Shown piece by piece: positions 6,808-46,458 of a stretch of DNA of 64,000 bases. Within the stretch, counting starts at the first letter, position 1. Every line of letters starts with the position of its first letter. Under the pieces are notes generated by a model. It had not been told where the DNA came from, ran no database searches, and worked only from the letters and a program-made list of their open reading frames with translations. The DNA is from Chryseolinea sp. (lineage in GTDB: Bacteria; Bacteroidota; Bacteroidia; Cytophagales; Cyclobacteriaceae). A program made the translations under genes and the position numbers. The DNA is taken from contig JAICGJ010000010.1 of assembly GCA_025923195.1 (NCBI GenBank), positions 1 through 64,000 on the forward strand, in the 5' to 3' direction.

Positions 6808-8202
6808 CTAAACCTGGTGATCCGTTTCAGAATCGAACACCACTATTTCCGCCCCCCGGGGATTTGTAACGTACCCATTTATCAAACTCTGAACCGTCGG
6901 CGTTTCCGGGCTTCTCTTGACGAGGAATTTTGCTGACTCGAAATCAGAGATTGAACTTTGCCGGTCGAAAAAGCCATAACCCACATAATTGCCTCGTTCC
7001 ACAAGCACCAACGATTGCTCTTCGATGTTCCTGCCTTTTCCGATGATAGCAACGGATCCACCAGGTACTTTGAATGATTCAATAGCTTTCTCAACGCGCG
7101 CATTATAAGCCGCAGCGGGTTCCGCGCCAGTGCAAGCGCCATGACACTTTCCCGTTTGATATTCAAAGCAAAGGCCCTTTGCTAATTGCAGTCCGCTAAG
7201 TTTCGGGCAAAGATCAAAAGTCCGGACTTTTTCCCAGAGGAAATTCCATGCATTGCCTTTGGAGTTAAACTTCTTCAACGGGCGCGAGCCACGAGACACC
7301 AGGTTGACTGAAAACCTACGATATCCATTGCGGTCCTCATAATCGAAAATTCCCCATTCCTCTAACCTGAATTTTTGTGCCAGATTATACTTTGGCCAGA
7401 GTCTGCGAATCTCCTGCGATTCAAGGATGAGTGCTATTAACTCGTTGCCAGTTAGTTCGTAGCTGATATGATGAATTTCATTTCTGATTTTAGAACGGCT
7501 CCATTCGCGCCCATCACCTGAAAAATGACCAGTGATTCTCTTCTTGATATTAATTGCTTTACCAACGTAAATGACGTGTCCATGAGCATTATGGAAATAA
7601 TACACGCCGGCAAGGAAGGGGAGTCGGTCAAATTCTTCCTTCGGCAGATTAGGAGGAAGTATGGTTTCGCCAGAGTTTCGTTTTAGTACTTTGAGTATAT
7701 AGCGGTCGTGATCCCGCCGTAATAATTGATCAAATATTTTCGCAGTGGCTTCGGCATCGCCCCCAGCGCGATGTCGATTTACAATTTCAATTCCCAGACT
7801 CTCGGAAAGACTTCCTAGACTGTAAGATCGAAGACCCGGTATTATCTTGCGGCTCAACCTTACCGTGCAAAGCTTCTTAGATTGCCAATTGATTCCCACC
7901 TCTTCAAATTCCTTTTTTAGGAATGAATAATCAAAGTGTGCATTATGGGCGACAAATACTTTGCCTTCCAATCGTTTAAAAATATCGTCAGCCACCTCTT
8001 TGAATGAGGGTGCACTCATGACCATATCTGTAGTGATGCCTGTAAGGCCCGTGATATAATAAGGTATGTTTCTTTCCGGATTGATGAGGGTGCGAAATGA
8101 GTCCGTCACTCTGATGCCATCGTGCAGATAAATAGCAACCTCTGTGATGCGATGTTTCTCGGCATATCCTCCCGTTGTCTCGATGTCAACAATCGCATAC
8201 AT
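6808..8202 (-). CDS. DEDDh exonuclease fused to a UvrC-like GIY-YIG nuclease domain
   Basis: A 464-aa fusion of two nuclease domains. Residues 1-165 form a DnaQ/epsilon-type 3'-5' exonuclease with all DEDDh residues: Asp6 and Glu8 (DIETTG), Asp91 (HNAHFDYSF), His144 and Asp149 (HRAGGDAEA). Residues about 195-275 are a GIY-YIG domain: GVYYF at 199-203, IYVGKA at 211-216, and Arg222 in KRITGHF. The rest (about 280-464) resembles the region after GIY-YIG in Cho/UvrC-like proteins and includes a cysteine cluster (CPKL, CFEYQTGKCHGAC). The architecture is known in Bacteroidota and Actinobacteria and fits DNA repair (a Cho-like incision nuclease plus trimming exonuclease), but function is inferred. 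Stand-alone gene; the start MYAIVDIETTG is fixed by the exonuclease motif. Confidence 0.9.
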   Translation of the reverse strand: MYAIVDIETTGGYAEKHRITEVAIYLHDGIRVTDSFRTLINPERNIPYYITGLTGITTDMVMSAPSFKEVADDIFKRLEGKVFVAHNAHFDYSFLKKEFEEVGINWQSKKLCTVRLSRKIIPGLRSYSLGSLSESLGIEIVNRHRAGGDAEATAKIFDQLLRRDHDRYILKVLKRNSGETILPPNLPKEEFDRLPFLAGVYYFHNAHGHVIYVGKAINIKKRITGHFSGDGREWSRSKIRNEIHHISYELTGNELIALILESQEIRRLWPKYNLAQKFRLEEWGIFDYEDRNGYRRFSVNLVSRGSRPLKKFNSKGNAWNFLWEKVRTFDLCPKLSGLQLAKGLCFEYQTGKCHGACTGAEPAAAYNARVEKAIESFKVPGGSVAIIGKGRNIEEQSLVLVERGNYVGYGFFDRQSSISDFESAKFLVKRSPETPTVQSLINGYVTNPRGAEIVVFDSETDHQV

Positions 8203-42400: not shown

Positions 42401-43144
42401 ATGATCCAGGTAATTCCATCAATCGCCATAAGAAAAGGCAAAGTGATAAAAATGCGGAAGGGTGATCCATCCAGCGAGAAGGCATACGATGAGAATCCGC
42501 TCGACCTGGCACGCCGCTTTGAGGACCATGGTATAGAAGTCGTCCATCTTGTAGACCTGGACGGTGCCGAAAAGGGCAGTCCCGTCAATTGGCACGTTTT
42601 GGAGGCAATTTCTGGATACACAACCCTGAAGGTTGATTTCACGGGCGGGATATCAACTGACGGAGACATTAGCAAAGCTTATGAATTTGGAGCCGCCTAT
42701 ATTACCGCTGCAAGTATAGCCGTTACTGATCCAGAACTTTTTGCTTCATGGATTGTATCCTACGGACGCGAAAAAATGACGCTAGGGGCCGATGTTACCG
42801 ACATCAATACAAAGGAACTTTTATATCGCGGCTGGCGACATAAGACAAAGCTGACGCTTTTTGAGCATTTGGAATACTTTTATTCGAGAGGGTTGAAGTA
42901 TGTCAAATCAACAGACGTATCGAGAGATGGTGTTTTGGAGGGACCCGCTTTCAACTTTTATCAGGAAATACGTGACGCTTTCCCGGAAATTTGTGTTCTG
43001 GCGAGCGGAGGGGTTCGCGGCGTAGATGATATTAAGAGATTGGATGAGATGGGCATCTTCGCTGTCATCTTTGGCAAAGCCTACTATGAAGGAGTATTGG
43101 ATTTAAAAGATCTTGAGCAATTCCTTATCAAAAAACAGGTCTGA
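42401..43144 (+). CDS. HisA-like isomerase homologue lacking the N-terminal catalytic Asp
   Basis: A 247-aa TIM barrel clearly homologous to HisA (the ProFAR isomerase of histidine synthesis): EVVHLVDLDGAEKG, TDPELFASWI, MTLGADV, KSTDVSRDGVLEGPA and ASGGVRGVDDI. The usual opening IPAIDL is here IPSIAI: codon 9 is GCC (Ala) where HisA has its catalytic Asp (Asp8 in the Thermotoga enzyme). The second catalytic Asp (STDVSRDG) is kept. The first phosphate loop is FTGG instead of GGG. No his genes are nearby, unlike in a his operon. Either a paralogue with a new role, or a divergent HisA; a his operon HisA elsewhere in the genome would favour the former. Confidence 0.8.
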   Translation: MIQVIPSIAIRKGKVIKMRKGDPSSEKAYDENPLDLARRFEDHGIEVVHLVDLDGAEKGSPVNWHVLEAISGYTTLKVDFTGGISTDGDISKAYEFGAAYITAASIAVTDPELFASWIVSYGREKMTLGADVTDINTKELLYRGWRHKTKLTLFEHLEYFYSRGLKYVKSTDVSRDGVLEGPAFNFYQEIRDAFPEICVLASGGVRGVDDIKRLDEMGIFAVIFGKAYYEGVLDLKDLEQFLIKKQV

Positions 43145-43664: not shown

Positions 43665-44018
43665 ATGGATAAACACCCAATTTCAGGCACTATACAGTTT
43701 TCAGACTTTCAAAGGGTTGATCTTCGCGCAGGGACTATTGTAAGGGCTGAAAAGTTTCCAGAAGCCCGAAAACCCGCGTACAAGTTGTGGGTTGATCTGG
43801 GTCCCTTGGGCATTAAGACGTCAAGCGCGCAAATCACCGCACATTACAATCCTGACATCCTGATTGGCCGGCAGGTTTTGTGCGTCGTAAATTTTGAACC
43901 CCGCAAGATTGCTAATTTTCGTTCAGAAGTCCTGATTACTGGGTTCCCCGACGAAAAGAATAATGTCGTGCTCTGTGGAATTGATAAAAGCGTTCCAAAT
44001 GGTGCCCGGCTCTTCTGA
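43665..44018 (+). CDS. CsaA-like tRNA-binding-domain protein
   Basis: 117 aa from the ATG at 43665 (MDKHPISGTIQFSDFQRVDLRAG); the frame upstream from 43479 is not family-like. A stand-alone OB-fold tRNA-binding domain as in CsaA/YgjH: VDLRAGTIVRAEKFPEARKPAYKLWVDLG, IKTSSAQITAHYNPD, VVNFEPRKIANFRSEVLITGF and VPNGARLF. Described in Bacillus as export-related chaperone; RNA binding is the conserved activity. One base separates its stop from the murF-alr start, so the two are co-transcribed and probably coupled. Confidence 0.92.
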   Translation: MDKHPISGTIQFSDFQRVDLRAGTIVRAEKFPEARKPAYKLWVDLGPLGIKTSSAQITAHYNPDILIGRQVLCVVNFEPRKIANFRSEVLITGFPDEKNNVVLCGIDKSVPNGARLF

Positions 44019-44019
44019 C

Positions 44020-46458
44020 ATGATTTTTTTTTCACAATTACCGGAAATTACAGGCGGCAAATTGCTCCAACTGCGCAGTGATTCTCAAATCGAGTATCTG
44101 TCAATCGATAGCCGCAAGGCGGCTACCCAGAAGGGAACGCTTTTTTTTGCAATAAAAGGTGAGCGTCACGACGGCCATCAATATATTTCAGACCTCTACC
44201 GAATGGGCACACGCCAATTTGTGATTGAGCAGCCCACCGAACATTTAATTGATTTTCCAGAGGCCAATTTTGTGCTGGTATCTTCCACCGTTTCGGCGCT
44301 GCAACGCGTCGCTGCGTTTCATCGGAAACGTTTTTCGTTCCCGGTTGTTGGCATAACGGGCAGCAATGGAAAAACAATTATCAAGGAATGGCTCTACCAG
44401 ATACTGTCTAAAGACCAAAGTGCAGTAAAAAACCCCGGAAGCTACAATTCACAGGTAGGCGTACCGTTGTCAGTTTGGCAAATAAAACCTCACCATCAGA
44501 TTGGCTTATTTGAAGCCGGCATTTCCCGACCAGGTGAAATGGAGCGACTGGAAGGCGTGATCCGTCCCACGATTGGTATACTGACAAACATTGGAACCGC
44601 TCATGACGAAGGCTTCCGTGACCAGGAGCAAAAAATTGAGGAAAAATTGAAGCTATTCAAGAATTCCCAAGTCCTCATTTATTGTGCGGACCATACCCAT
44701 GTGAAACGGGTCATTCAAAAAATGGGAATCAGGACATATTCCTGGGGCCGGGATCAAGGTGTGGATCTATTGGTTTCATTTCAACATCATGCCTGCCAAA
44801 TATCACACGCTGGACAAACACACACCATTGAAATGCCCTTTGCAGACAAAGCCTCTATAGAAAACTGCTTACACTGTGTGGCATTGCTAACATACCTTGG
44901 CTTTAATTACAAGAAGGTTCAGAAGTCGATCAATAGCCTGAGATCTGTTCCTATGCGAATGGAAATGAAGGAGGGCATTAACCAATCATACCTTATAGAC
45001 GATACGTATAACAATGACCTCGGCGGATTAGAATTGAGTCTTCAGTTTCTCACTCATCAAAACCAAAAAAAGAAAAAGAGGCTGATCCTTTCAGACATCT
45101 TAGAGTCAGGGTTGTCCGGGGAGTTGCTGGCAAAACAAATCCTTGTTCTTCTTGAAAAATATCCTGTTCAGAATTTTGTAGGTATCGGGCCTATGCTCAC
45201 GGGTGAGCAAAGATTCTTTTCGGAGAACTCGTTATTTTACCCGACTACGCAGGCCTTTCTAGACAATTTTGATTTTGGATCAATCCATGAAGAGGTGATT
45301 CTCGTAAAGGGCGCTCGCACGTTCACCTTTGAGAAAATTGCTAATAGATTGCAGCGCAAGCTACATGGAACGGTAATGGAGGTAGACTTAAGCGCGTTGG
45401 TACATAACCTCAATGTATTCAGGTCATTGTTAAGACCTGAAACAAAAATAATGGTTATGGTGAAGGCTTTCGCATATGGAAGCGGTAGCCCTGAAGTTGC
45501 AAATGTACTCCAGTATCACAAGGTGGATTACCTTGGCGTGGCATATGTCGACGAGGGTGTCGATTTGCGAAAAAATAACATCGTCATTCCTATCATGGTG
45601 ATGAATCCTTCCGAGGACAGTTTCGATTCCCTTATTAACTATAACCTTGAACCCGAGATCTATAGCTTCAGGATTTTTCACTCTTTGCTAGAATATTTAG
45701 GTGGAAGACCGTGCTCAATACATCTTAAGCTAGATACAGGTATGCATCGGCTGGGATTTGCAAAGGAAGAGTTATCTGAGCTTATTCAACTACTAGGTCA
45801 AAATCGCAATATAATTGTTGCGTCAATATTCACTCACCTCGCAGCAGCCGATGAAAGCGGTCAGGACGAATTCTCGAATTATCAGGCATCAGTATTTACG
45901 GAAGCAGCTGAATCAATTAGCACGTTCTTGGGCTATCGGCCTTTATACCATATCCTGAATTCATCGGGCATATTGAGACTGCCACATCTTCAACATGATA
46001 TGGTCAGGTTGGGGATAGGTTTATATGGGGTCGATCCCTCACATCCTGATTCCAAGGAGCTCAAGCCGGTTGCCGCGTTGAAAACCGTCATTTCGCAAAT
46101 CAAGAGCATCAAGAAAGGTGAGACTGTTGGTTACGGTCGAAAGGGAATTGCAAGGAATGACTTAAGGGTAGCCACAATAGCGATTGGATACGCTGATGGG
46201 TTTAGCAGAAGGCTCAGCCAGGGTGTCGGTGAGGTCCTAATAGCAGGCAAAAGGGCACCTGTCATTGGAAATGTCTGCATGGATATGACTATGGTGGATG
46301 TCACGGCAATAGATGCCAAGGAGGGCGACGAGGTTGTGATTTTCGGTGCGGAATTGCCGATCCAGGAAATGGCCAACAAAATTCAAACGATCCCGTATGA
46401 ACTGCTAACAAGCGTCAGCGAACGAGTTAAGCGGATATTCGTGTCTGATGGAATCTAG
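44020..46458 (+). CDS. Bifunctional MurF (UDP-MurNAc-tripeptide:D-Ala-D-Ala ligase)/alanine racemase
   Basis: 812 aa from the ATG at 44020 (MIFFSQLPEITGGKL). Residues about 1-440 are MurF, which adds D-Ala-D-Ala to the peptidoglycan precursor: ATP loop GITGSNGKT, NPGSYNSQVGVPLSVW, FEAGISRPGEME and IDDTYNND. From about 450 the chain is a PLP alanine racemase: VMEVDLSALVHNL, PLP lysine in MVMVKAFAYGSGS, KLDTGMHRLGF, AIGYADGF and GNVCMDMTMVDVT. The fusion is a known Bacteroidota feature and joins the supply of D-Ala with its use. The MurF half lacks some Asp/His contacts of stand-alone MurF in the first domain, so whether both halves are active is not provable here. It begins one base after csaA. 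Confidence 0.95.
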   Translation: MIFFSQLPEITGGKLLQLRSDSQIEYLSIDSRKAATQKGTLFFAIKGERHDGHQYISDLYRMGTRQFVIEQPTEHLIDFPEANFVLVSSTVSALQRVAAFHRKRFSFPVVGITGSNGKTIIKEWLYQILSKDQSAVKNPGSYNSQVGVPLSVWQIKPHHQIGLFEAGISRPGEMERLEGVIRPTIGILTNIGTAHDEGFRDQEQKIEEKLKLFKNSQVLIYCADHTHVKRVIQKMGIRTYSWGRDQGVDLLVSFQHHACQISHAGQTHTIEMPFADKASIENCLHCVALLTYLGFNYKKVQKSINSLRSVPMRMEMKEGINQSYLIDDTYNNDLGGLELSLQFLTHQNQKKKKRLILSDILESGLSGELLAKQILVLLEKYPVQNFVGIGPMLTGEQRFFSENSLFYPTTQAFLDNFDFGSIHEEVILVKGARTFTFEKIANRLQRKLHGTVMEVDLSALVHNLNVFRSLLRPETKIMVMVKAFAYGSGSPEVANVLQYHKVDYLGVAYVDEGVDLRKNNIVIPIMVMNPSEDSFDSLINYNLEPEIYSFRIFHSLLEYLGGRPCSIHLKLDTGMHRLGFAKEELSELIQLLGQNRNIIVASIFTHLAAADESGQDEFSNYQASVFTEAAESISTFLGYRPLYHILNSSGILRLPHLQHDMVRLGIGLYGVDPSHPDSKELKPVAALKTVISQIKSIKKGETVGYGRKGIARNDLRVATIAIGYADGFSRRLSQGVGEVLIAGKRAPVIGNVCMDMTMVDVTAIDAKEGDEVVIFGAELPIQEMANKIQTIPYELLTSVSERVKRIFVSDGI

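Follow-up and report, generated by a model that had tools for sequence, protein, structure and literature searches.

A HisA paralogue of the Cytophagales with a replaced general-base aspartate and an invariant lysine at position 169

The window, a 64,000-nucleotide stretch of a Chryseolinea sp. contig, carries a gene for a 247-residue protein of the PF00977 (His_biosynth) family, and the translated open reading frame (ORF), 42401-43144, begins MIQVIPSIAI. Among named records the nearest is Chryseolinea serpens (88% identity), which makes the host a Chryseolinea-like member of the Cytophagales, and we take it to be a soil bacterium. As the first-pass annotation had stated, the gene lies alone, with no his gene near; its neighbours are divergent and convergent. 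Elsewhere in the window, positions 43963-46458 hold an 831-residue ORF resembling a MurF–alanine racemase fusion, preceded by a gene for a CsaA-like tRNA-binding protein; this arrangement is known in Bacteroidota. The features of the gene are listed below, with residues numbered as in the window protein.

42401..43144, forward strand: HisA paralogue gene, 247 aa, PF00977, stop codon included (ORF and profile match)
42419..42421, forward strand: Ser7, replacing the invariant Ala of IPAID (Ser in 94/96 paralogues, Ala in 131/131 canonical HisAs)
42425..42427, forward strand: Ala9, codon GCC, replacing the catalytic Asp (D7 of Salmonella HisA; phmmer alignment; Asp in 0/96 orthologues)
42641..42649, forward strand: Thr81-Gly82-Gly83 loop, FTGG where canonical HisA has FGGG (alignment)
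42791..42793, forward strand: Asp131 (D129 of Salmonella HisA), kept in 95/96 paralogues
42833..42835, forward strand: Trp145, the substrate-stacking Trp of HisA (PMC9088769), kept in 93/96 paralogues
42905..42907, forward strand: Lys169, codon AAA, barrel strand 6 (L169 of Salmonella HisA), in 96/96 paralogues and 0/131 canonical HisAs
42926..42928, forward strand: Asp176, the catalytic acid of HisA (loop 6), present here and in 82/96 of the clade
43007..43012, forward strand: Gly203-Gly204 phosphate loop (ASGGVR), kept (alignment)
43073..43078, forward strand: Gly225-Lys226, second half of the conserved phosphate site; residue 226 is Lys or Arg in the clade

The window protein passed the gathering cut-off of PF00977 (194.4 versus 23.6 bits). 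Its best NCBIfam match was the HisA equivalog TIGR00007, at 190.8 bits and under the curated cut-off of 228.95; eight orthologues scored 183.9–210.2 bits, placing all nine paralogues scored under this value, whereas the canonical HisA of the same genome reached 259.9 bits and passed. The PriA profile TIGR01919 gave 127.4 bits, below its cut-off of 306.45. The cyclase-type relatives HisF, AglZ/HisF2 and WbuZ (TIGR00735, NF038364 and TIGR03572) belong to the same PF00977 superfamily, but the paralogue scored only 57, 65 and 57 bits against cut-offs of 295, 310 and 300. The AlphaFold2 model, based on an alignment of 32 relatives, had a mean pLDDT of 90.8, with Lys169 on strand 6 (residues 167–170). 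The closest structure to the model was Salmonella HisA with ProFAR (5a5w; Z 35.8, rmsd 1.9, 242 residues), and the bifunctional HisA-TrpF enzyme PriA/HisAP (2y88, 3zs4) showed the same fold with Z of about 33–35. The modelled structure indicates that the paralogue is a (beta-alpha)8 barrel of the HisA family.

Our alignment covered 96 distinct paralogues and 131 canonical HisAs of the Bacteroidota. The first-pass annotation had read IPSIAI in place of IPAIDL, with the general-base Asp changed to Ala, and the alignment confirmed this by placing Ala9 on D7 of Salmonella HisA. Residue 9 is Asp in 131/131 canonical HisAs and in none of the paralogues, which have A (30), S (23), W (21), T (9), Y (6) or others at this position; a sequencing error or a change confined to one genome is thus ruled out. 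As to whether the Ala is conserved among homologues, the loss of Asp extends across the Cytophagales, but the Ala itself does not. Residue 169 is Lys in every paralogue, while canonical HisAs nearly all have I, L, V, T or F there and never Lys. This coupled gain of Lys169, which the first-pass annotation had not mentioned, makes residues 9 and 169 a perfect separator of the two groups (131/96 in a two-by-two table, with empty off-diagonals). The other catalytic Asp, described as kept, is indeed present in the window gene as D176, but it is relaxed in the clade, being replaced by E, N, H or V outside the 82 proteins that retain it. The reported difference in the first phosphate loop was also correct, and position 81 is Thr, Ser or Ala in the paralogues.

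Further paralogue-specific residues are Arg123 (94/96), Arg206 and basic residues at 19 and 20 in loop 1; residue 147 is Lys in 67/96 paralogues versus Glu in 109/131 canonical HisAs. The GG203-204 and GK/GR225-226 loops are retained. Residue 85, Ser in the window protein, aligns with the basic gripper of canonical HisA, and its counterpart in Salmonella, R83, grips the distal phosphate of ProFAR (PMC9088769). Because the proximal phosphate loops are kept, the basic residue at 85 is lost and other basic residues are gained, one phosphate site is intact, with the distal site altered and the pocket more basic. The paralogue shares with Salmonella HisA (TIGR00007, 5a5w) the fold, the length, the proximal phosphate loops and the equivalents of D129 and W145, as well as D176 in most members. 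Unlike HisA, it never has D7, always has Lys169, lacks the distal-phosphate gripper R83/K85, lies outside the his operon and falls below the curated HisA cut-off.

The window protein shares about 30% identity with Salmonella HisA and 39% with the HisA of its own genome. Within the genus, identity was 91, 87 and 84% for the paralogue versus 75, 69 and 73% for hisA. The dN values were 0.05–0.12 in most pairs, with synonymous sites saturated, and 0.028/0.833 in one pair, so that only their direction, toward constraint, is usable. The paralogue is under constraint.

The genome of the window also has a canonical HisA, reading IPAIDI, in a his operon on another contig, C211 (hisB-hisH-hisA-(GxxExxY)-hisF-hisIE); such a second copy was what the first-pass annotation had proposed to look for. 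The small GxxExxY-type protein gene inside this operon, between hisA and hisF, occupies positions 6836-7213 of the contig (L006, G000:C211). hisD and trpF are each located outside C211, on other contigs. Three genomes, G026, G043 and G045 (94%, 93% and 98% complete, the last a single contig), keep the paralogue and lack canonical HisA, HisF, hisD, trpF and trpC. Since the paralogue is kept where both pathways are missing, its role in these three genomes is neither histidine nor tryptophan synthesis, and since it survives in relatives that have lost histidine synthesis, it must have another job. A further genome, G041, retains the paralogue and lacks hisD; it encodes a second PF00977 protein of 272 aa (L227, G041:C4; 185 bits), perhaps a HisF2-type modification protein.

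We regard it as very improbable that the gene is a decaying copy or a HisA that is redundant or serves as a back-up. Membership of the HisA family is clear and most phosphate-binding residues are kept, as this reading expects; however, the nine scored paralogues (184–210 bits) all fall short of the cut-off that the genome's own HisA passes, both catalytic Asp residues are affected, conservation within the genus is higher for the paralogue than for hisA, and the paralogue persists where the rest of the pathway is gone. On the scores, the residues and the retention in histidine-auxotroph genomes, we reject a back-up HisA. The first-pass view of the gene as a paralogue rather than the histidine enzyme is upheld by the canonical HisA of the same genome and by retention without HisF, hisD, trpF and trpC; of the two options that it named, altered chemistry and a regulatory role, either may apply.

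Orthologues were found in 32 of the 36 same-family genomes searched, being absent from the other four, and in several other Cytophagales families; match counts indicated no orthologue in three families (f2, f11 and f13). In a tree computed without columns 9 and 169, 50 representative paralogues formed one clade (SH-aLRT 99) inside Bacteroidota HisA, and the HisF rows fell outside the HisA-paralogue part. The tree shows a single origin for the paralogue, and the distribution suggests an ancient HisA duplicate, found so far only in the Cytophagales. The residue signature occurred in none of the inspected proteins from outside this order; that inspection stopped short of about 70 weaker class matches, and paralogue motifs had guided the first search, so that rare members may exist elsewhere. 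The open literature, subscription papers being outside our coverage, yielded no paper on this paralogue. A very divergent member (L053, G043:C4; 37% identity), reading LIASVYI, is encoded in a reduced genome of 1.6 Mb; it still has Lys169 and the kinase and regulator neighbours described below.

At about half of the paralogue loci that we examined, genes for a histidine kinase and an OmpR-type regulator immediately precede the paralogue on the same strand. The best NCBIfam match of the regulator was RprY, at 317 bits and under the cut-off of 370. At other loci the neighbour is lysA (diaminopimelate decarboxylase; 376.7 bits, above the cut-off) or unrelated genes, and three loci (L041, L062 and L072) bring lysA, the kinase/RprY-like pair and the paralogue together inside about 4 kb, an arrangement that may be the ancestral locus of the clade. 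Neither the two-component pair nor lysA adjoins the paralogue in the window genus; the closest homologue of the regulator in the genome is on another contig (C108), beside its own kinase. As a pathway clue the operon context was rejected, since the neighbours vary by lineage (RprY-like pair, lysA, unrelated genes) and name no pathway. Upstream of the start codon by about 35–40 bases, a GTAACTT-like block recurs in five same-genus genomes; a sigma-70 scan for a conserved promoter gave nothing above chance.

This gene order suggests a possible regulatory link between the kinase/regulator pair and the paralogue. The main rival to the explanation that we prefer is a pseudoenzyme acting as a non-catalytic metabolite sensor, which would bind, but not convert, a metabolite of the phosphoribosyl type and signal via a partner, possibly the upstream RprY-like pair. 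The same-strand pair at about half of the loci, the loss of the general base, the relaxation of the catalytic acid throughout the clade and the free variation of residue 9 (A/S/W/T/Y) are all consistent with it. In contrast, the pair is not adjacent in the window genus, the gaps elsewhere (61–370 bp) do not make a tight operon, and other families have lysA or unrelated genes as neighbours. Moreover, a scaffold needs no invariant pocket Lys beside the almost invariant Asp131. We consider a sensor rather unlikely on balance.

Position 169 links the paralogue to laboratory work on Salmonella HisA, in which L169R gives TrpF activity and abolishes HisA activity, and Q18R also confers TrpF activity (PMC7591586). 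Simulations show R169 in contact with D129 and salt-bridged to the anthranilate carboxylate of PRA; the counterpart of D7 in TrpF is Cys, within an Asp/Cys acid-base pair (PMC9088769). Lys169 aligns with the Arg of the HisA-L169R structure (5g2h), and among the structure matches the substrate-trapped HisAs have D7 changed to N. The paralogue and HisA-L169R (5g2h; PMC7591586, PMC9088769) both carry a basic residue at 169, in the paralogue probably next to D131 as in HisA-L169R next to D129. In contrast, HisA-L169R has Arg and keeps D7, while the paralogue has a natural Lys, has lost D7 and carries many more substitutions.

This likeness raises the idea that the paralogue arose from HisA as an additional phosphoribosylanthranilate isomerase (TrpF), a natural counterpart of HisA-L169R. 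Lys169 occupies precisely the site at which L169R yields TrpF activity, and the residues corresponding to H17 and Q18 of Salmonella HisA are basic as well. We nevertheless regard this idea as improbable, since the base position, Asp in HisA and Cys in TrpF, is A, S, W, T or Y in the paralogues, and the activity gained by HisA-L169R is not needed by the hosts, most of which have a true TrpF. The same applies to a PriA-type role in covering for a missing trpF: trpF is present in the window genome and in most paralogue hosts, which have separate HisA and TrpF, and PriA keeps the base Asp (D11). Given host trpF and the retention of the paralogue in the three genomes without trpC and trpF, we reject TrpF replacement as the main role.

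We lean, with modest confidence, toward the explanation that the paralogue is a HisA duplicate with a basic Lys169-Asp131 site that binds, and probably converts, a different metabolite of the sugar-phosphate type, probably a carboxylated one. The duplicate would have given up ProFAR isomerisation; it retains the barrel together with Asp131, Trp145 and the proximal phosphate site (GG203-204, GK225-226). The general-base Asp has been lost for good, Asp176 relaxed and the distal-phosphate gripper at residue 85 lost; the gains are the invariant Lys169 on strand 6 and the basic residues in loop 1 (19, 20) and loop 5 (147). The ligand may then be a smaller metabolite that is phosphorylated and bears a further negative group, most likely a carboxylate. 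By analogy with Arg169 in HisA-L169R, Lys169 may pair with Asp131 and hold the carboxylate of the ligand, and the Lys169/Asp131-based site would most likely convert the metabolite. The ligand class is an inference, as is catalysis, which we derive from conserved pocket residues; an invariant Lys would suit a protein that only binds its ligand just as well.

As a lead, strand 6 is also where the Schiff-base lysine sits in many class I aldolases. An hhalign profile comparison with KDPG aldolases, used to place the Schiff-base Lys, gave only a shifted, meaningless alignment. With A, S, W or Y at the D7 position, the paralogue is unlikely to be a conventional Amadori isomerase. As a tentative proposal, the paralogue may be an undescribed Cytophagales enzyme in which the strand-1 Asp was swapped for a catalytic Lys169, working through a Schiff base or as a Lys/Asp acid-base pair on a carboxylated sugar phosphate.

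HisA, TrpF and PriA are a textbook case of new enzymes arising via gene duplication and few substitutions. To these our study adds a parallel from nature, in which an old HisA duplicate that is fixed in many genera has been altered at the position used in laboratory evolution and has lost the base residue. The substrate of the paralogue would reveal where such a trajectory leads, and if Lys169 is catalytic, the paralogue would exemplify in nature the route that L169R opened in the laboratory. Because automatic annotation can label the paralogue as HisA, it can also be miscounted as evidence of histidine prototrophy, notably in reduced genomes without the pathway.
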